Part shown: one piece after another, positions 20,267 through 30,166 of the stretch
Numbering within the stretch: the stretch's first letter is position 1
Layout of the letters: the number at the start of each line of letters is the position of its first letter
Notes under the pieces: model-generated
The model's database searches: none
The model's input: only the letters and a program-made list of their open reading frames with translations
What the model was told of the DNA's origin: nothing
From: a virus
Length of the DNA stretch: 30,166 nt
IMG/VR virus record: IMGVR_UViG_3300042474_000633
Span: 1-30,166 of that record
Direction: 5' to 3' (one strand)
Position numbers and translations under genes: made by a program

Positions 20267-21961
20267 TTATTTACTTATTAAAAACTTACCCAAAACCAAA
20301 TAATCCATATCACAATTTAAAAATGTCCATATTGCTTTTTGTGGGTCATTTGTCATTGTGTGGTCTTTTAAATTAAATGATGTATTCAATAGAATGGATG
20401 TTCCTGTTAGTTTTTCGAACTCCTTTAATAAGTCATAGTAAAGTGGGTTATCTTCTCTTTTAAGTGTCTGTATCCTTGCAGAATTGTCAACATGGGTTAC
20501 TGACGGAATGTTTACATCCTTTTTAACTTTGACAACTTGATTCATATAAGGAACATCTTCTTCTGATAGAAAATACTTTTGATAATCTTCAATTGTAACC
20601 GATGGAGCAAATGGTCTAAACATTTCTCTCTTTTTGACAACCTTATTAATTCTATCTCTAACATCTTCCAAATGTGGATTGGCTAATATAGAACGATTAC
20701 CCAATGCTCTTGCACCAAATTCAGTTCTACCTTGAAACCAACCTATAATGTTACCTTCATTAATTAACTTTGCAACCGATTTACACAACATCTCATTGCT
20801 ATCGAACATTTCAACTTTACTTCTATTATTTTGTAATATAATTTTAAGTAATTCAGGACTACTCCACTCCTCACCTAAATATGGAGATTGATTATCACCA
20901 CCTTTTACTTTTGGATTACCTAATATAATATGATGTTGATATAAACACGCACCGATTGCAGAACCCGAATCCGATGGAGCAAATGGAATCCAAACATTTT
21001 TGATATTTGTATGTTTTTTAATTTTACCATTAGCAGTTCCGTTATATGCACACCCACCACCTAATACTAAATTTTCACATTCCCAAATATTAGTAATTCT
21101 ATTGATAATAAAATATAATGCACTTTCATACCACTTTTGCAATGAGGCAGCTAGGTCTTTATGATGTTGTTCAATTGGTTCATCTTTAAATCTTGGTGGA
21201 AATCCAATTAAATCAATAAGTTTTTCATTAAACATATCATTATCCGATGTATGCCATGTAAAGTAAGACATATCCACCTTTACAATATCGATTTCACCAC
21301 CAGTAGTAACAACTTTATCAAATATATTATATTTTTCATTATCACCATATGGGGCCAATCCCATCACTTTATATTCACCTTCGTTTGGTTTAAATCCTAA
21401 ATAAGCAGTGAATGCCGAATAAATCAACCCCAAAGAATGTGGAAATTGTAATGTTTGTATTTTATGAAACCCGTTACTATCACACATTGTGGCGTATACC
21501 GAATGTCTTTCACCAACTCCGTCAATTGACAACCCTATTGTTGTATCAAATGGTGATGTATAATATGAAAGTGCCAAATGTGATAAATGATGTTGAGTAT
21601 ATGTGATAATTCCATCATAACCAATGGATTTCAATATTTTTTTTAAATTACCTTCGGTTTCATTCCATCTTTTATTAAACTTTCTCCATTTCATTGGATA
21701 TCTTAAACCACCCCATTTACCTATTGTTTCTCTAACTCTTTCATATTTGTCATTTGGGGTTTCATACCAACAAACCATATCAACTTCATCAATTGTTATT
21801 TTTGTGTATTCTAAACACCATTGGATTGCTTTAAATGGAAAAGAACTATCGTGTTTTTCACCAGATAGTTTCTCTTCTTCAATGGCACATATTACTTTAC
21901 CATCCACTAATAGTGTTGCAGCTGAATCGTGATAAAATGCAGATAAACCTAATTGTATCAT
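20267..21961 (-). CDS. Carbamoyltransferase, NodU/CmcH/TobZ family
   Basis: Full-length O-carbamoyltransferase (564 aa, normal for the family). Family members use carbamoyl phosphate and ATP to make a carbamoyl-adenylate and pass the carbamoyl group to a hydroxyl. Kae1-like domain landmarks: GLSAFYHDSAA (H11, D12), EEEKLSG then KHDSSFP, QHHLSHLALSYY (H124, H125, H128, probable metal ligands), YLGFKPNEGEYKVMGLAPYG and LVLGGGCAYNGTANGK. The C-terminal YrdC-like part has GWFQGRTEFGARALGNRSIL, MFRPFAPSV and SILLNTSFN. No key motif is missing, so it is probably active. The acceptor is unknown: sugars on surface glycans or hydroxymethylated DNA bases are known or proposed options in this family. 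It follows the sigma gene by 2 bases and precedes the tail genes. Confidence 0.95.
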   Translation of the reverse strand: MIQLGLSAFYHDSAATLLVDGKVICAIEEEKLSGEKHDSSFPFKAIQWCLEYTKITIDEVDMVCWYETPNDKYERVRETIGKWGGLRYPMKWRKFNKRWNETEGNLKKILKSIGYDGIITYTQHHLSHLALSYYTSPFDTTIGLSIDGVGERHSVYATMCDSNGFHKIQTLQFPHSLGLIYSAFTAYLGFKPNEGEYKVMGLAPYGDNEKYNIFDKVVTTGGEIDIVKVDMSYFTWHTSDNDMFNEKLIDLIGFPPRFKDEPIEQHHKDLAASLQKWYESALYFIINRITNIWECENLVLGGGCAYNGTANGKIKKHTNIKNVWIPFAPSDSGSAIGACLYQHHIILGNPKVKGGDNQSPYLGEEWSSPELLKIILQNNRSKVEMFDSNEMLCKSVAKLINEGNIIGWFQGRTEFGARALGNRSILANPHLEDVRDRINKVVKKREMFRPFAPSVTIEDYQKYFLSEEDVPYMNQVVKVKKDVNIPSVTHVDNSARIQTLKREDNPLYYDLLKEFEKLTGTSILLNTSFNLKDHTMTNDPQKAIWTFLNCDMDYLVLGKFLISK

Positions 21962-23575: not shown

Positions 23576-24103
23576 TTATATTAATGTTTTAGTTTGTTTT
23601 TTAGAATAATTAGTTTTTTTCCAATGTAGAAAAAATTGTAAAACTCTTTCATTTTCATTACAAATAAGTTCATCTCTCCAATGTATTATTTTATCGGAAT
23701 CCATTAATATAATACCATCACCAACATTTGTATTAAAATTTACATTTTTATTATCAATTTCTGCCCATAAAGGCCATTCTTTATTTATGGTGGATTCTAA
23801 ACATATGGACATAGTTATATTGATATCGGTTCTATCTTTATGTTTTGCTAAAAATGATTTATTTTTATATTCTCTGACGTATGTATTTGTATCTATCAGG
23901 TCAATAGTATTCAATGTTTCTAAAACTTTGGGTTTCAATTTATCCAAATAAATATTAAATTTATCGGAAGGTCTGAATCCAAATGTATTTGGTGTAGTTC
24001 TAATATCATCAAAAGATTTTGTTTTAGATTTTTCCAAATCAAATTGGGTTGTCAAAAATTTACACTCTTTTTCTGAAAGAATATTGGGTATCAAATATAT
24101 CAT
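23576..24103 (-). CDS. 2OG-Fe(II) oxygenase (second of tandem pair)
   Basis: A small dioxygenase-like protein of 175 aa with the double-stranded beta-helix pattern. Candidate ligands are H88 and D90 in FLAKHKDRTD (HxD), H141 in IIHWRDEL as distal histidine, and R153 in NERVLQFFLHW as the 2-oxoglutarate-binding arginine. The first residues (IPNILSEKECKFLTTQFD) match the N-terminal start of the neighbouring oxygenase, so the two look like diverged duplicates. The substrate is unknown: prolyl or other protein residues, a nucleobase or a small molecule are all possible. It lies 3 bases after its neighbour and 10 before the deformylase gene. Confidence 0.85.
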   Translation of the reverse strand: MIYLIPNILSEKECKFLTTQFDLEKSKTKSFDDIRTTPNTFGFRPSDKFNIYLDKLKPKVLETLNTIDLIDTNTYVREYKNKSFLAKHKDRTDINITMSICLESTINKEWPLWAEIDNKNVNFNTNVGDGIILMDSDKIIHWRDELICNENERVLQFFLHWKKTNYSKKQTKTLI

Positions 24104-24106
24104 ATA

Positions 24107-24667
24107 TTATATTAATGTTTTTTTAAAATTTTCTATTGGTGTTACTTTAAACCAATTAACTAATGAGTATCTTGTTCCTGATATTATGGGTTTTACTCTA
24201 TGTGTTAAATGTGAATAAAAAATAAATAGATTGCCCACCCCTTTTTCTAATGTTATTTCATTATCATCCTTATCTTTTATTTGTAGTTCACCTCCAGTAT
24301 ATTCATCATTTAATTGTATAACCATTGAACAATATCTTTCTTGATAGACTCCATCTGCAGAATCTTCGTGCCAATTATAATATCCGTCTGTTGTGTATTC
24401 TGTAAATTGAAACATATTATTTGTAAAATCAATTTCATAACCTTTTACATTTACTTCTTTTTTAAAAATATTAATTAATTTTTCATTTAAATTTGGAAAA
24501 TCTAAACTATAATCATAGAAAAAAACATTTGATTTTCTACTTTTTAGATTCAACCTTTTAGTATCTGATACCAATGCTGGTTTCAATTCTTTGGTTAATG
24601 AAAATTGTAACAAATCTTCACATTCTTTTTTTGATAGAAAATTTGGTATAGTAGTATAGTTTATCAT
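24107..24667 (-). CDS. 2OG-Fe(II) oxygenase, prolyl 4-hydroxylase-like
   Basis: A 186-aa member of the P4H-like 2-oxoglutarate/Fe(II) family. NWHEDS gives H100 and D102 (HxD), SHLTHRVKPI gives the distal H156, and GTRYSLVNWF gives R166, the usual 2OG anchor. The strand preceding the distal His (GGELQIKD, then GNLFIFYSH) is typical of this group. Such enzymes are widespread in T4-like marine phages, mostly with unknown substrates. The N-terminal IPNFLSKKECEDLL repeats the beginning of the next oxygenase, supporting gene duplication. It belongs to the run that begins with the promoter-like site at 25255. Confidence 0.93.
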   Translation of the reverse strand: MINYTTIPNFLSKKECEDLLQFSLTKELKPALVSDTKRLNLKSRKSNVFFYDYSLDFPNLNEKLINIFKKEVNVKGYEIDFTNNMFQFTEYTTDGYYNWHEDSADGVYQERYCSMVIQLNDEYTGGELQIKDKDDNEITLEKGVGNLFIFYSHLTHRVKPIISGTRYSLVNWFKVTPIENFKKTLI

Positions 24668-24680
24668 TATAATAATGTTT

Positions 24681-24926
24681 TTATTTTTTCAATCCGTACT
24701 TAATCCATTTATACCATACTCTTTCGTGAATATAATATTGAATGGGTTTATAAATCAATTCTGCTACACCAAATGTTGCTCCTACTTTAATTGAACCACT
24801 TATTAACCACATTAATAAGAAACCAACTATGGTACTTATAATACGATATGAGATAGTTTTTGCAATGTGTCTTTTACGCTCTACTACCATCTTTCTCAAT
24901 TTCACCTTTACGAATTTTAGTTCCAC
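24681..24926 (-). CDS. DUF2061 small membrane protein
   Basis: The core RHIAKTISYRIISTIVGFLL, followed by KVGATFGVAELIYKPIQYYI and HERVW, matches the DUF2061 family: a basic start, two short membrane helices (about residues 28-45 and 49-64) and a conserved YxHERVW end. Its function is unknown. The frame opens at 24926 (81 aa), but the internal ATG at 24890 is more likely: it leaves a 69-aa protein that begins just before the conserved block and overlaps the upstream nucleotidyltransferase by 17 bases instead of 53. DUF2061 proteins occur in bacteria and phages; any link to sulfate activation is from memory and not supported in the sequence itself. Confidence 0.88.
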   Translation of the reverse strand: MELKFVKVKLRKMVVERKRHIAKTISYRIISTIVGFLLMWLISGSIKVGATFGVAELIYKPIQYYIHERVWYKWIKYGLKK

Positions 24927-25233
24927 TAATTACTTCAATATTAGTAGGAGGTTCGTGGTATATAACCTCATATCCAACACCTCTACCATAGTTTACACTT
25001 TCAACGTCTGGAATAATTGATAACAATATTTTATCCCAATTGTTTGTAAAAAATGGTTCTTTTTGTAATTCTTGTAATACTTCTTGTGCTGATTTTGGAT
25101 TATTTTCATCCTTTTGTACATCTCTGATTGCAACCCAACAATTCTTTCCTTTTTCTAATTGTTGATTGATTAACCACTCATGACCTTTGTGCCATGTTTG
25201 CCACCTTCCGATGAATAATGCATATTTTTTCAT
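24874..25233 (-). CDS. Cytidylyltransferase-like nucleotidyltransferase (HxGH family), short
   Basis: The start MKKYALFIGRWQTWHKGHEW carries the HxGH signature (H15-K-G-H18) of the nucleotidylyltransferase superfamily, close to the GRFQPxHxGH form of NMN adenylyltransferases. Near the end ISGTKIRKGE (102-111) matches the ISxTxxR motif. These enzymes join a nucleoside monophosphate from a triphosphate to a phosphorylated substrate. At 119 aa it is shorter than usual NMNATs (160 or more) and lacks the C-terminal helical part, but both nucleotide-binding motifs are kept. Candidates are an NAD salvage enzyme or a related cytidylyltransferase. It is the first gene after the promoter-like site at 25255-25284. 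Confidence 0.88.
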   Translation of the reverse strand: MKKYALFIGRWQTWHKGHEWLINQQLEKGKNCWVAIRDVQKDENNPKSAQEVLQELQKEPFFTNNWDKILLSIIPDVESVNYGRGVGYEVIYHEPPTNIEVISGTKIRKGEIEKDGSRA

Positions 25234-25254
25234 AAATTATAATTTCGTATTTTC

Positions 25255-25284
25255 AATATACGAAAATAATTTTAATTTACCAAA
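25255..25284 (-). promoter_or_regulatory. Promoter-like motif upstream of the nucleotidyltransferase-sigma operon
   Basis: Coding strand: TTTGG (25284-25280), 19 bases ending ATTATTTTCG, TATATT (25260-25255), about 21 bases before the ATG at 25233. It heads the gene run that includes the gp55-like sigma and the carbamoyltransferase. Confidence 0.7.
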
Positions 25285-25286
25285 TA

Positions 25287-26378
25287 TTAATAAGTTTTAA
25301 TATTTTCATGTTCACTTCTTAGTCTAGATAACTCTCTAACATTACCACCCTTAGTTGATAACCAATAATTAACGGCCTTTGGGTTATTTATCCATAAATT
25401 TCTTTTATTCCAAGGAAATTCTGGATGCATATATTCTTCCCATTTTAAATCTGGAAGATTTTCTTCTACATTTTCAGAAGTAGGTGTATCATCAACCACA
25501 ACATTAGTAGATTCAACATTTGTATCTTCTTCTTTTTTGTTAGTCTCATTTTTTTCGTTTTCGTTAACAATATCATCTCCGTAAACCTCATATAATCCTA
25601 ATTTTTGGTTATTTTCAACCATTTCCGATAAAAGTTCTTCTCTTGTTTTATTTTTTGGTAAAACTAAACCATTAAATGCTATAATAAGTGCAACGGCCAA
25701 TGGGTCAAACACTATTACAATCAAAAATATAAAGAATTTGACTACTTTTTTTAATTCTACACCAAAAACTTCAGCTATAAACCTAAAACCACCCACTTCT
25801 TTCTCCAAATCTAAGTTAGAAACCTTAATTTTGTTGATTTCATCGTTATTTTTAGCATTTTGGTCTTGCAAATCACTAATTTTTTTATTAATTTGAGCAG
25901 TTTGTCTGTCTTTTTGGTCAATTGAACGTAAAAGACGAGAATTTACCTTACCTTTGTCTAAAATTGTGTTTTGTGTTGAAGATAATTGACCTAATTGAGT
26001 ATTAAGTTGAGTAATTTGTGCAGTATTTTGGTCAATTTTTGTAGTATAGACTAAAACCTCTCTATCAACCTGTTGTAATTTTAGGGACTGAGATTGAAAT
26101 GCATTAGAAAGATATCCAAATATACCAGCTGAGGTGATTAACATCAGTAATGCAACGGCAGAGGTCAAATACCACTTATTAAATCCCTTTATGTTTTCCC
26201 ACTCTTGTTTGAGATAAGTTGCTGCTACTAATTTAGCAAACTCCAGTGCACCGGCCATTACCATAACAGATACGGCTGCTCCACTAAATAGAACACCCAA
26301 ACCCGTTACGGAGAAGTAAGCTGCACATCCGGCAATAATTAGTGCAGAAAATCCGACTAAATATTTAAGCCAATTCAT
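25287..26378 (-). CDS. Large membrane protein with internal coiled coil
   Basis: A 363-aa protein with probable membrane segments at about 5-27, 29-53, 70-91 and 212-238, and a long coiled coil between the third and fourth (about 95-195: LQQVDREVLVYTTKIDQNTA, QINKKISDLQDQNAKNN). With four segments, both ends and the coiled coil would be placed so that the coil projects on the opposite side from the tail. The C-terminal 120 residues are acidic, low-complexity (NEKNETNKKEEDTNVES) and then end in a conserved-looking block (WEEYMHPEFPWNKRNLWINN). It forms an operon with the 58-aa ORF (start directly follows TAA). I do not recognise the family. Inner-membrane anchoring or superinfection-exclusion roles are only possibilities. 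Confidence 0.82.
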   Translation of the reverse strand: MNWLKYLVGFSALIIAGCAAYFSVTGLGVLFSGAAVSVMVMAGALEFAKLVAATYLKQEWENIKGFNKWYLTSAVALLMLITSAGIFGYLSNAFQSQSLKLQQVDREVLVYTTKIDQNTAQITQLNTQLGQLSSTQNTILDKGKVNSRLLRSIDQKDRQTAQINKKISDLQDQNAKNNDEINKIKVSNLDLEKEVGGFRFIAEVFGVELKKVVKFFIFLIVIVFDPLAVALIIAFNGLVLPKNKTREELLSEMVENNQKLGLYEVYGDDIVNENEKNETNKKEEDTNVESTNVVVDDTPTSENVEENLPDLKWEEYMHPEFPWNKRNLWINNPKAVNYWLSTKGGNVRELSRLRSEHENIKTY

Positions 26379-26555
26379 TTATCTATTGATTCTGGTTAAT
26401 TCGGCAACACGTTCTACTATCTTTCTTGCATCTTCCAAAGTAGTGTGAGCAACCGATGGTGTCATTGATTGTGCACCAGTAATCCCGTTTTGTAAAATCC
26501 TCAACTTTCCGTCTAAAGATTCTAATAACGTTTGTATTTTTTCGTTGTATATCAT
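26379..26555 (-). CDS. Small hypothetical protein, 58 aa
   Basis: A short ORF from ATG at 26555 to TAA at 26381-26379, with the next gene's ATG starting at the following base (TAAATG). It reads MIYNEKIQTLLESLDGKL and ends VERVAELTRINR. Most of it would be helical, with a Gly/Ser/Thr/Pro turn in the middle (GITGAQSMTPSVAHTT). No function is recognised. Its tight coupling to the large membrane protein gene and the lack of any other gene in this 256-base stretch support that it is real. Confidence 0.7.
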   Translation of the reverse strand: MIYNEKIQTLLESLDGKLRILQNGITGAQSMTPSVAHTTLEDARKIVERVAELTRINR

Positions 26556-26578
26556 AGTAATAAGTATTTATTTGTAAT

Positions 26579-26612
26579 AAAAAAGGTAGAAGTGTTTAAT
26601 CTCCTACCTTTT
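26579..26612 (-). terminator. Rho-independent terminator after HSP20
   Basis: On the coding strand AAAAGGTAGGAG (26612-26601), loop ATTAAACA, then CTTCTACC and TTTTTT (26592-26579). The 8-base stem has one G-T pair and is extended by A/T pairs. It lies 23 bases past the HSP20 stop and directly downstream of a promoter-like motif, so it may also act as a leader attenuator for the 58-aa ORF. Confidence 0.9.
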
Positions 26613-26613
26613 C

Positions 26614-26643
26614 AATATACGAAAAATAACTGAATTAACCTAA
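26614..26643 (-). promoter_or_regulatory. Promoter-like motif directly before the terminator
   Basis: Coding strand: TTAGG (26643-26639), 19 bases ending TTATTTTTCG, TATATT (26619-26614). It overlaps the end of the HSP20 gene. It shares the 16-base core with the other three sites; only its -33 box differs by one base. Confidence 0.55.
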
Positions 26644-27021
26644 TTTTGGGGTTAATTTTTTTGGTTTGGACTCTTCCTTTCTTTCAATAGTAATTAAGAG
26701 AATACCATTTTTAATTTCAGCTTTTGCTTTTCTGCCATCGAAGTTTTTACCTACGTTAACTCTTTCTTCAATGTCTGAAATTAATTGATTGAAAGGATTT
26801 TCTTTGTCCTCTTGTGTTTTTTTGGCTTTGATTTCAATCTTGTCCTCAAAACAATTGATTTCAATATCATCAGGATTGTGTCCTAATACTGATAATGCAA
26901 TTGTTGCAGATTCATCTTTAATGTCTACTGCAAATTTGTTTTGAACATACGTTGTTCTTTCTTTTGGTTGTTCGATTGGAAAAAATTCATCGAACAATTT
27001 ACTGTAATCAATCATGTACAT
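26635..27021 (-). CDS. Small heat shock protein, HSP20 family
   Basis: ATP-independent chaperone of 128 aa with an alpha-crystallin domain (about residues 28-118). The core features are FAVDIKDESATIALSVLGHN, then DDIEINCFEDKIEIKAKK and the closing AEIKNGILLITIERK (GxLxI/V motif). A short basic tail ends KPKKLTPKLG, resembling the C-terminal IxI/V-type anchor region without a clear IxI. HSP20 genes are common in T4-like phages of marine cyanobacteria, probably protecting host or virion proteins during infection. Start could be ATG at 27021 or the third codon ATG at 27015. It lies behind the HD gene with a 77-base gap and is closed by a strong terminator. Confidence 0.93.
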   Translation of the reverse strand: MYMIDYSKLFDEFFPIEQPKERTTYVQNKFAVDIKDESATIALSVLGHNPDDIEINCFEDKIEIKAKKTQEDKENPFNQLISDIEERVNVGKNFDGRKAKAEIKNGILLITIERKEESKPKKLTPKLG

Positions 27022-27082
27022 AATATAAATGTTTTTAGTTAATAATATCTTATATAGTCCAAATATTATACCAATGAACTAC

Positions 27083-27098
27083 TTTTGACATTTTGACA
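27083..27098. repeat. 8-bp tandem repeat TTTTGACA x2
   Basis: The plus strand reads TTTTGACA twice in a row, immediately beyond the HD gene stop, at the beginning of the 77-base HSP20 leader region. On the coding strand this is TGTCAAAA twice. It may be an operator or a chance repeat. The same gap holds TATATAAG but no -33 box at the usual distance. Confidence 0.5.
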
Positions 27099-27746
27099 TT
27101 AAATTTCGTTATTTTGTCTTTCGATGATTGTAGACATATGGTCTGCCCAATGCATGATAAATTGAAGTTTGTAAACTAATTGCTTTTTCAAATCGTGACC
27201 TGCTAAATACTTTTGATTATCTTCATCATACATACCATCGGTAAGTTTGATTGCGAAATACTCTTTCTCATTATATTGAATACCATAATGATTCAATGTA
27301 AAGAAAGTTCTATCGGTTAAGGTCATATATGGAATATTCTCATTACGAACAAATAAAGTTCCGTATTTCTTTTGAGACCACTCTTCCTGGTTTGGTAAAT
27401 AATGTAGTTCTGCTTTAACACCCAACTTTCCTAAGTCGTGATGTAGACAACTAAATATTAATTCTTCTTCGGTGAAATCAATCTCTCCACCTTGCATTAC
27501 GAATAGGTCTCTCATTTTAAGAGCGTTCTTACATACGTTAAAGATGTGGTCTATATACCCACCTATATATGCGTTATGATAGTGTTTTGAGCCAGATGCG
27601 GCAGATAGTGTAAGATTAACACCCAATTCTTCTTCGGAATACATATGGAGTAATTTCTCCAATCTTTCTCCTGTGAAATATTTTTTAATTATACCTATAA
27701 ATCGGTCATAATTTGCTTTTAATTCTTGTTCTGTCTTTTGTTTCAT
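27099..27746 (-). CDS. HD-domain phosphohydrolase-like protein
   Basis: A 215-aa protein with an HD fold: H67 in YIDHIFNVC, the HD pair H103-D104 in CLHHDLGKLG (100-107), and the distal D202 in MHWADHMST, the four-ligand pattern of metal-dependent HD phosphohydrolases (H...HD...D). Possible substrates are nucleotides, dNTPs, cyclic nucleotides or (p)ppGpp; the sequence does not tell which. The N-terminal 50 residues are a helical extension with a basic start. It has its own promoter-like site at 27777-27806, about 30 bases before the ATG, and lies just downstream of the radical SAM gene. Confidence 0.87.
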   Translation of the reverse strand: MKQKTEQELKANYDRFIGIIKKYFTGERLEKLLHMYSEEELGVNLTLSAASGSKHYHNAYIGGYIDHIFNVCKNALKMRDLFVMQGGEIDFTEEELIFSCLHHDLGKLGVKAELHYLPNQEEWSQKKYGTLFVRNENIPYMTLTDRTFFTLNHYGIQYNEKEYFAIKLTDGMYDEDNQKYLAGHDLKKQLVYKLQFIMHWADHMSTIIERQNNEI

Positions 27747-27807: not shown

Positions 27808-28872
27808 TTAAATTATTGTTTTTTTATTGTCCAATAATTCATACATATTATGAAATACAAATGGATTGGTTGCAACCTTTTTAAATTGTTTTAAAAATAA
27901 TGTATGTTCTGGATGTGTATCATTACCAACATCAATTAATTTAAATTGGCCATCACTAAATGTTCCCCAATTTGTTATTCTACCAAAAAATACTTTAGTT
28001 TTATTTTTGAATATGGAATATATTAAATTTAAAAATGTTTCCATTTCATTATAATTTGATTGTTGGGCCACAAAAGAACATTTAACACTCTGTAAAGATT
28101 TTATAGTTGAAATAAAATTTAAATTTGAAATCAGATTATGCCAATTGCCTCCCAACCTTGTTACATTTTCGTAAGTATATTGAGCACCAGCATCTATACT
28201 AATTTCACAACTATGAACATATTTATGTATATTTGGCATACTATCCCACATTTCTTTATTCCACAAACTGGCGTTTGTATGTAGATGAATTGATTTTAAA
28301 TTTGGATATTTTTTTGGATTAAAATTTCTTAAAAAATTTCTATATGAAACAGATGCAAATGGGTCAGCTGTACCAGAACAATAAATTGTTTCAATTGAAT
28401 CGGAATATGCATTTTCTATTTCTTCTATTGTAAGATTTACACTTTTTATTTTATCACTATTTGCAACAATCATATCCACTCTACATGATGGACATTTATA
28501 ATTACAAGTTCTATCAAATGACATTTGAATTATTTTAGGGCCGGTAGGAATTATACCAGTTTGTGTATCGTAATTCATTTTCATTTCATCACTCAAATTA
28601 TCTATGTGGATAACTGGACCGGAAATACTTTTATTTAATGATATTAATCTAGCTAAAAATGGACATTGTGTTTTATCACAATAACGATACGAACCATCCA
28701 TTACAGATTTTCGTATTTCGATAGCTTCATCTGAATTCCATAATTCTTTTATGGGAACCCCATTGGGTAATTCTTTTTTCAACCAACTTGCACAACACAT
28801 AAAATTTTTATTTTCATGTATTTCTAATGCCTCAAACGGAACCGTACAAACATATTGTTTTAAATCTATCAT
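27808..28872 (-). CDS. Radical SAM protein with N-terminal SPASM/twitch-like cluster
   Basis: A 354-aa radical SAM enzyme. DRTCNYKCPSC gives C123, C127 and C130, the CxxxCxxC that binds the SAM-cleaving Fe-S cluster. Before it lies a cysteine-rich block typical of SPASM or twitch domains: C9, then C26-C27 in FMCCASW, the WNSDEAIEIRKSVMDG helix, and C65 and C70 (CDKTQCP). Such auxiliary clusters normally follow the radical SAM barrel; here they precede it, as in the N-terminal-twitch radical SAM proteins I recall from phages and metagenomes. The reaction is unknown: peptide, sugar or nucleotide modification are all possible. Its start overlaps the SGNH stop by one base (TAATG). Confidence 0.9.
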   Translation of the reverse strand: MIDLKQYVCTVPFEALEIHENKNFMCCASWLKKELPNGVPIKELWNSDEAIEIRKSVMDGSYRYCDKTQCPFLARLISLNKSISGPVIHIDNLSDEMKMNYDTQTGIIPTGPKIIQMSFDRTCNYKCPSCRVDMIVANSDKIKSVNLTIEEIENAYSDSIETIYCSGTADPFASVSYRNFLRNFNPKKYPNLKSIHLHTNASLWNKEMWDSMPNIHKYVHSCEISIDAGAQYTYENVTRLGGNWHNLISNLNFISTIKSLQSVKCSFVAQQSNYNEMETFLNLIYSIFKNKTKVFFGRITNWGTFSDGQFKLIDVGNDTHPEHTLFLKQFKKVATNPFVFHNMYELLDNKKTII

Positions 28873-29540
28873 TATATTAATTTATCTATATCACATATTG
28901 AATTAATAGTTTTTCTTAATGTATCGTCACCAATCATTTCTAAAAACTTATTCGCTAATTGTTCATGTCCTAATTCCGAATAATGTGCATCTTTCATTAA
29001 ACCATTAGTTTCATTGGTAATTGTAGAAAATCCACTATCACCCCATATTTTAATACCCATATCCCAAAAGGGTGTCCATTGAATCAATATCATACCTTTA
29101 AATAACCAATTTAAAAACTTTACTCTATCATATAATTCGTATTCATATCCCAATAAAGAACGATTTACTAATATTTCTTCTATCGTATTTTTGGATATAA
29201 ATGGTATATTTTGTTTAAATCTGCTATTAGGTATAATAGTAATAAATCCTTTAATAGAATCTGCTAATCTAAACCTATGGATTGTTGACCAACCAATGAT
29301 AACTATATCTTCTTTACTAATTTTAGGGGCCTGTTTTAATACTCTTTCAAATATAGTATCATTATCTATTCCACCAATACCAAAATGTTTTACATCTACT
29401 CTCAGTTCATTTGCTATAATATCACTAAAATGTTTAGGAACATACCCTTTCCAATTACAATAGTCCGCATCCCAATTACCCAATGTTTTATTATCAAATG
29501 GTGTAGAAAAAGAATCACCAAATATCCACAATTTTTTCAT
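28872..29540 (-). CDS. SGNH/GDSL-family hydrolase
   Basis: A 222-aa protein with the family blocks. Block I is LWIFGDSFS (4-11) with candidate nucleophile S10, followed by GIGGIDNDTIFER (block II-like, GxxxN), VIIGWSTIHR (block III region, without the standard Asn) and KDAHYSELGHEQLA (block V, D184 and H186). Members are esterases or acyltransferases acting on sugars, lipids or peptidoglycan acyl groups. There is no signal peptide, so it probably acts inside the cell, perhaps on an activated sugar or acyl donor. Start overlaps the sulfotransferase stop as ATGA and its stop overlaps the radical SAM start, so the three genes are translationally coupled. Confidence 0.87.
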   Translation of the reverse strand: MKKLWIFGDSFSTPFDNKTLGNWDADYCNWKGYVPKHFSDIIANELRVDVKHFGIGGIDNDTIFERVLKQAPKISKEDIVIIGWSTIHRFRLADSIKGFITIIPNSRFKQNIPFISKNTIEEILVNRSLLGYEYELYDRVKFLNWLFKGMILIQWTPFWDMGIKIWGDSGFSTITNETNGLMKDAHYSELGHEQLANKFLEMIGDDTLRKTINSICDIDKLI

Positions 29541-30166
29541 ATTAATTTATTTGATTTTTCTTCTATTCTTACTTTTTTATATGGTGAATTAATCCACTCA
29601 TCAATACAACTTTGATTATATTCTATCTCACAATATTCGTTTAATCTTTTTATTGTTTCAATATCTTTGTCGACAAATAAATCTTCATAATAAAATAGTG
29701 GATATCCCATGTCGGAAATGGATTTTAGGCCGCTTGCAGCCGATTCTAAATGATGTGTTAATTCTATTATAGTATCCTCATCATCCTCTGTTAATTCATA
29801 ATATTTTTGTGTATGCCAATTTTGTAAAGGTGTTCTATTTTTAGATATTTTCAGATGGTATGTTAATGATTCGGCTTGTAATCTTTTATTTTTTCTTTCT
29901 AATACTATTATTTTATCAAAAAATGAATAAAACCATTCCCAATAATCTTCTACACTTTTAAAAGATTCATATGGGTAATTATCACTATCTATAAATGTTT
30001 TTATTAATATGTTTTTTTTATTTATTATTTCATCAATTCTTTTTAGTTGGTTGTATGTATCCTCTCTATCTGGATTTATAAAATTAAATGGTTCAAAGAA
30101 AGAATCATATTTTTTACGTTCTCTAGCTAAACAACACTTTAAATAATAAAACGTTGATGTGGAACC
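29537..30166 (-). CDS. Sulfotransferase-like protein (N-terminus beyond window)
   Basis: A frame of 209 codons is open from the right edge to the TGA at 29539-29537; the start codon lies outside. At the edge it reads GSTSTFYYLKCC, then SFFEPFNF, resembling the GSTxL/PAPS 5'-phosphosulfate-binding loop and the following FEPFN segment of sulfotransferases. Further on, KIIVLERKNKRLQAESL resembles the 3'-phosphate-binding strand-helix (vLxRxNxxxQAxSL). The C-terminal 90 residues are helical and end VRIEEKSNKLI. I infer transfer of sulfate from PAPS to a hydroxyl, perhaps of a glycan. The family assignment rests on these two motifs, so it is less certain than its neighbours. The stop overlaps the SGNH start by ATGA. 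Confidence 0.75.
   Translation of the reverse strand, partial: GSTSTFYYLKCCLARERKKYDSFFEPFNFINPDREDTYNQLKRIDEIINKKNILIKTFIDSDNYPYESFKSVEDYWEWFYSFFDKIIVLERKNKRLQAESLTYHLKISKNRTPLQNWHTQKYYELTEDDEDTIIELTHHLESAASGLKSISDMGYPLFYYEDLFVDKDIETIKRLNEYCEIEYNQSCIDEWINSPYKKVRIEEKSNKLI

Follow-up and report, generated by a model that had tools for sequence, protein, structure and literature searches.

The window analysed here, a viral contig of 30,166 bases taken at its full length, carries at its right edge three overlapping genes for enzymes of different chemistries, and the question raised by this locus is what joins them. An initial annotation had read them as a sulfotransferase, an SGNH hydrolase and a radical SAM enzyme, produced in fixed ratio and acting in a shared pathway. 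The genes and their surroundings are listed below, where the tag is a C-terminal motif described in a later section.

29537..30166, minus strand: sulfotransferase-like protein ST-a, 209 aa in the window, start beyond the edge; tag ..EEKSNKLI at 29540-29563
28872..29540, minus strand: SGNH-like hydrolase, 222 aa, with Ser10 at 29511-29513 and His186 at 28983-28985; tag ..CDIDKLI
27808..28872, minus strand: N-twitch radical SAM enzyme, 354 aa; tag ..DNKKTII at 27811-27831
28483-28506, minus strand: CX3CX2C motif of the radical SAM enzyme, with N-terminal auxiliary cysteines within 28663-28848 (cysteine conservation)
24874..27746, minus strand: untagged flanking genes (HD-like, Hsp20, coiled-coil, nucleotidyltransferase-like), serving as contrast set
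24107..24667, minus strand: 2OG-Fe(II) oxygenase, PF13640 at E 6.8e-16; tag ..NFKKTLI
23576..24103, minus strand: 2OG-oxygenase-like protein, phrog_2954 (a PHROG labelled ferrochelatase) at E 6.3e-22; tag ..KQTKTLI

Identity and context of the three genes

The radical SAM protein matched NF033640 (N_Twi_rSAM) over residues 7-288 at E 1e-13, scoring 51 bits versus a curated cutoff of 170 bits, so that it is a divergent member. C123, C127 and C130 of the CX3CX2C motif, together with C9, C26, C27, C65 and C70, were invariant among 21 relatives. CX3CX2C and N-terminal cysteines are thus shared with the N-terminal-twitch family, but the window protein carries the tag, which was absent from five inspected bacterial relatives of 31-39% identity. 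The window SGNH protein had no Pfam, PHROG or NCBIfam match of its own; relatives clustered with it matched Lipase_GDSL (E 4.4e-6), and the residues typifying an SGNH hydrolase, G8-D9-S10, N60 and H186, were invariant in 14 sequences. ST-a, of which a full copy of 220 aa with the N-terminus MRIAIVCNGRSGSTS is encoded at L002 8674-9336, had no Pfam match, and a profile search returned the LPS sulfotransferase NodH at 0.019 and CurM at 0.028. The best fold match of its AF2 model (pLDDT 87), and the sole one below 0.001, was SULT1B1 with PAP (E 4.2e-4, TM 0.48); K67, R102, S111 and E172 were invariant among 38 relatives and the [RS]-x-GS loop was present. The radical SAM and SGNH assignments were thereby borne out and that of the sulfotransferase moderately so, the profile and fold matches arguing weakly to moderately for a PAPS sulfotransferase. 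The final residues of the ST-a model had a pLDDT of 59, against 87 for the model, which fits an exposed tail.

The overlaps joining the three genes were found as annotated, with ATGA at 29537-29540 between ST-a and SGNH and TAATG at 28872 between SGNH and radical SAM. Of 809 proteins of these phages that do not belong to the tagged families, 127 have comparable overlaps; being routine, the overlaps are by themselves no proof of a shared pathway or of fixed-ratio production. The shared pathway finds its support instead in the common C-terminal tag and in co-occurrence with a protein that we call PREC. The radical SAM gene was located in 25 viral loci at 58-100% identity in a first scan and in 205 loci in a profile scan. 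ST-a lies directly upstream in 21/57 and directly downstream in 19/57 distinct radical SAM genes, some having both, and the presence of SGNH beside radical SAM varies across loci. A dedicated pathway of the sulfotransferase, SGNH and radical SAM enzymes would agree with the adjacency and overlap of their genes, but is very improbable, since this order was found only in the present lineage (window/L002 and L005, with the SGNH-radical SAM part in L004) and the genes form part of a larger set that carries the tag. On this synteny, the three genes are ruled out as a conserved unit.

That genes upstream of the sulfotransferase lay beyond the window proved correct. Contig L027, 100% identical to the right end of the window across 6,013 bases, extends 13.4 kb further and revealed, in order toward the window, a tagged Cys4 protein, PREC, SGNH, a 2OG oxygenase, a second SGNH-like protein, a 2OG oxygenase, ST-a, SGNH, radical SAM, HD, Hsp20, coiled-coil and nucleotidyltransferase-like genes, with the end of PREC about 2.7 kb past the window edge. 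We conclude that a larger operon-like island, built around PREC and present in large uncultivated phages, has the trio at its 3' end. Further into the window, the protein at 23576-24103 has PHROG matches in common with its paralogue at 24107-24667, which matches 2OG models. A NodU-type carbamoyltransferase gene (20267-21961) and the Hsp20 gene (26635-27021) lie near virion genes.

A C-terminal tag on unrelated enzymes

In 102 loci with 1,432 distinct proteins, a survey of C-termini revealed a common ending, roughly K-x-[ST/K]-[LI]-[IL]-COOH, on most enzymes of the island, which come from at least six families without homology to each other. The tagged families comprise 2OG oxygenases, two sulfotransferase-like families, SGNH, tryptophan halogenase (PF04820, 4.2e-81), radical SAM, a Cys4 protein of about 95 aa, a SPASM radical SAM family and a DUF6734-like family; SET-domain proteins are among the small families that carry it. 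In L147, L211 and L241, unrelated enzymes have variant endings in common, -F or -V, which looks like a joint shift of the tag.

The tag was present in 464/623 members of tag-rich families and in 20/483 members of other multi-member families from the same loci, a comparison that is circular because the tag-rich families were picked by tag presence. For this reason, an unselected test by distance was made, in which 422 of 661 genes within four genes of PREC were tagged versus 50 of 445 at least ten genes away. None of 94 members of the families of the untagged flanking genes in the window had the tag. Two long contigs carried it on 19/239 and 16/285 proteins, 11 of the 19 falling within one 10-kb run, and stretches of five isolate phages, 2OG/halogenase clusters included, on 1/224 proteins. 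Both long contigs of this phage group (180.8 and 238.2 kb; L114 3823-11409 and L118 19153 to L119 9300) hold a predicted tmRNA and about 25 tRNA genes. A tmRNA origin of the tag was rejected, as the predicted tag peptides of the phage tmRNAs end in ..NVAVA and ..YAVAA instead.

Roughly half of the tagged genes overlap the following start, and the final Ile favours ATA (0.70 vs 0.48), as would be seen if the common C-terminus merely reflected a signal in the DNA for translation initiation of the following, overlapping gene. The ATA preference is expected where this codon overlaps the next start. Both AGY and TCN codons are used for Ser(-3), and the Leu, Thr, Lys and Ser codons of the tag are near background. 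The strict tag is kept in 82/121 genes of tag-rich families with the next start more than 30 nt off and persists in nine genes that face a convergent neighbour, whereas just 26/127 overlapping genes outside the tagged families have it, some of them island genes in small families. Codons and spacing thus largely exclude a translation-coupling artefact, which we regard as extremely improbable, and the tag is selected as amino acids, at the protein level.

The tag tracks PREC. At halogenase-anchored loci of at least 10 kb, a tagged halogenase was accompanied by PREC in 13/13 cases and an untagged one in 0/36; the split is complete (13/0/0/36, p = 4e-12), with the proviso that tagged sequences are related, so that p-values overstate independence. 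One of the 13, L147, has the loose tag form only (KNQLF), and PREC also accompanies the most divergent tagged halogenases (L147 and L148, 42-50% identity). Among radical SAM-anchored loci, PREC is missing only where the sequence upstream of the radical SAM gene is shorter than 5 kb. The isolate phages inspected that have the same enzyme families have neither tag nor PREC.

Short C-terminal signals are known elsewhere, as cargo peptides of encapsulins and microcompartments and as C-terminal degrons. The tag, a short hydrophobic stretch at the very end of the protein, could likewise be a signal unrelated to PREC, directing the loading of enzymes into the capsid or some other compartment, or their degradation by a host protease. 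This is unlikely, as a signal for packaging or degradation in general would be expected on other proteins too, but the tag is found on modifying enzymes only and goes with PREC. The likeness to cargo peptides lies in a short C-terminal motif common to unrelated enzymes; in contrast to those systems, no shell protein was identified here.

Domains and tail of PREC

PREC, of about 500 aa, consists of a glutathione-synthetase-like ATP-grasp fold, a Hint/intein fold and a Cys/Trp/Tyr-rich tail of about 29 residues. It has 229 viral relatives and had no match in 50,697 isolate phage records, nor in 84,980 species genomes in a scan dependent on short exact peptide patterns. In a viral fold library, none of the matches listed spans the whole protein; these concern about the Hint part or align poorly. 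The AF2 model (pLDDT 81, tail disordered) matched Hint domains (Hedgehog at 5.6e-8, BIL, many inteins) and glutathione synthetases (2.4e-5 and 6.6e-5), the latter assigned to the N-terminal part from domain order and size. E22 and N24 of the putative ATP-grasp domain are invariant.

D462, H479, N480 and C482 were invariant in 40/40 diverse sequences, H479 and N480 being the terminal His-Asn pair that C-terminal cleavage by a Hint domain would require. The equivalents of intein Cys1 and block-B His are non-catalytic in these 40 sequences (H/I/V at 303 and C/S/A/T at 401, in a register taken from the motif pattern and not from a structural alignment), so that PREC has the Hint fold but lacks the N-terminal nucleophile and block-B His of splicing. 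With His-Asn kept and the N-terminal catalytic residues lost, it looks like a domain that would cleave C-terminally only. Inteins, bacterial intein-like, Hedgehog and pretoxin HINT domains have the same fold; PREC differs in the loss of the Cys1 and block-B His positions in its main lineages and in the fusion to an ATP-grasp fold, and canonical Hint copies are found in side lineages only. L210/L211 have one canonical Hint domain, and L217 (3179-5917) and L227 (3218-5956) have three in tandem, with 2-3 residues between.

The tail, with a mean length of 29 residues, contains 21% Cys, 8.5% Trp and 8.9% Tyr and is also rich in Gly, Pro, Ser and Asn. Mean pairwise identity is 0.53 for the ATP-grasp part, 0.49 for Hint and 0.46 for the tail (0.32 without shared Cys). 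The C-terminal segment is variable, Cys/aromatic-rich in most lineages and without such a tail in some. PREC tails mostly end in K-[LIV] (PPKL, ESKL, EKV; e.g. L015 5908-7398), like a shortened tag. In L030 (10001-11746), the Cys-rich segment is followed by an S74-like fibre-chaperone end, as judged by sequence similarity, and in L148 (7632-9269) such an end (PF13884, E 6.5e-4) replaces the Cys-rich tail. Tagged enzymes are present in L210, L217, L227 and L148 though PREC has no Cys-rich tail there.

Proposed docking, modification and release

Tag, PREC and enzyme set together suggest that the island is an undescribed viral assembly line that modifies PREC. In the scheme that we favour, with a probability of roughly 0.45, the tag docks the enzymes on PREC, the tail is modified and Hint releases it, as in a RiPP-like pathway. 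The tag would be a docking signal bringing every island enzyme to a single receptor, for which the best candidate is the folded N-terminal part of PREC, a component without the tag and never missing. Radical SAM, oxygenase, halogenase and sulfotransferase enzymes would then modify the Cys/Trp/Tyr/Asn/Pro-rich tail, as would SGNH, SET or glycosyltransferase-like enzymes where present; the tail residues are plausible targets of this enzyme set. The degenerate Hint domain would cleave after His-Asn by Asn cyclisation and so free the tail. This docking scheme accounts for why the enzymes are tagged, why tag and PREC occur together and which chemistries the enzyme set has. Receptor-tag co-evolution would be expected to leave genome-specific covariation of the tag letters, for which an overall statistical test gave a weak signal that is not counted in support.

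Lineages without the Cys-rich tail are unexplained by docking and leave room for PREC being a virion component, a tail-fibre tip or adhesin decorated by the tagged enzymes during assembly; neighbouring fibres may be decorated instead, and the particle would display a chemically diverse receptor-binding surface. The S74-like ends in L030 and L148 point this way, as do fibre-like genes adjoining some islands and cyanophage halogenases near structural genes. We hold both versions possible but somewhat doubtful, because the N-terminus of PREC is an enzyme-like ATP-grasp fold and no fibre, and related phages have fibres and the same enzyme families without tag and PREC.

ATP-grasp ligases activate carboxylates, in several families those of peptide C-termini, so that PREC may use the tagged C-terminus as a substrate motif. 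It is conceivable, albeit quite unlikely, that PREC ligates tagged enzyme C-termini to itself or to each other and that Hint later cuts; the result would be a covalent viral multi-enzyme conjugate.

The docking scheme resembles known RiPP pathways, borosins included, in which an enzyme is fused to its own C-terminal core peptide: PREC combines a large N-terminal part with a short variable C-terminal peptide, and tailoring enzymes are encoded alongside. It differs in that Hint takes the place of a separate protease, that the folded leader is an ATP-grasp fold and that the short recognition motif sits on the enzymes, not on the leader; moreover, the system is in phage. No description of such a system was found in the open-access literature. 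Genes for 2OG oxygenases, halogenases and sulfotransferase-like proteins abound in large aquatic phages; cyanophage 2OG oxygenases and halogenases make up 76 and 20 of 153 in a published table (PMC10452541). These belong to the same families as the island enzymes, but those inspected have no tag and no PREC. The tag would mark which enzymes work together, and PREC is a candidate target in the same island, which allows specific tests. If docking is true, it is a new way of organising post-translational modification, with a portable recruitment tag; if false, a terminal signal common to unrelated viral enzymes still demands explanation.

Concerning hosts, the structural genes are similar to those of phages of Flavobacterium and Microcystis. 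A tagged radical SAM fragment of 66% identity, which is a remnant or a chimera, was found at one end of a contig that had been assigned to Sediminibacterium by binning (L261 7118-7354) and gives a weak hint of a host in Bacteroidota.
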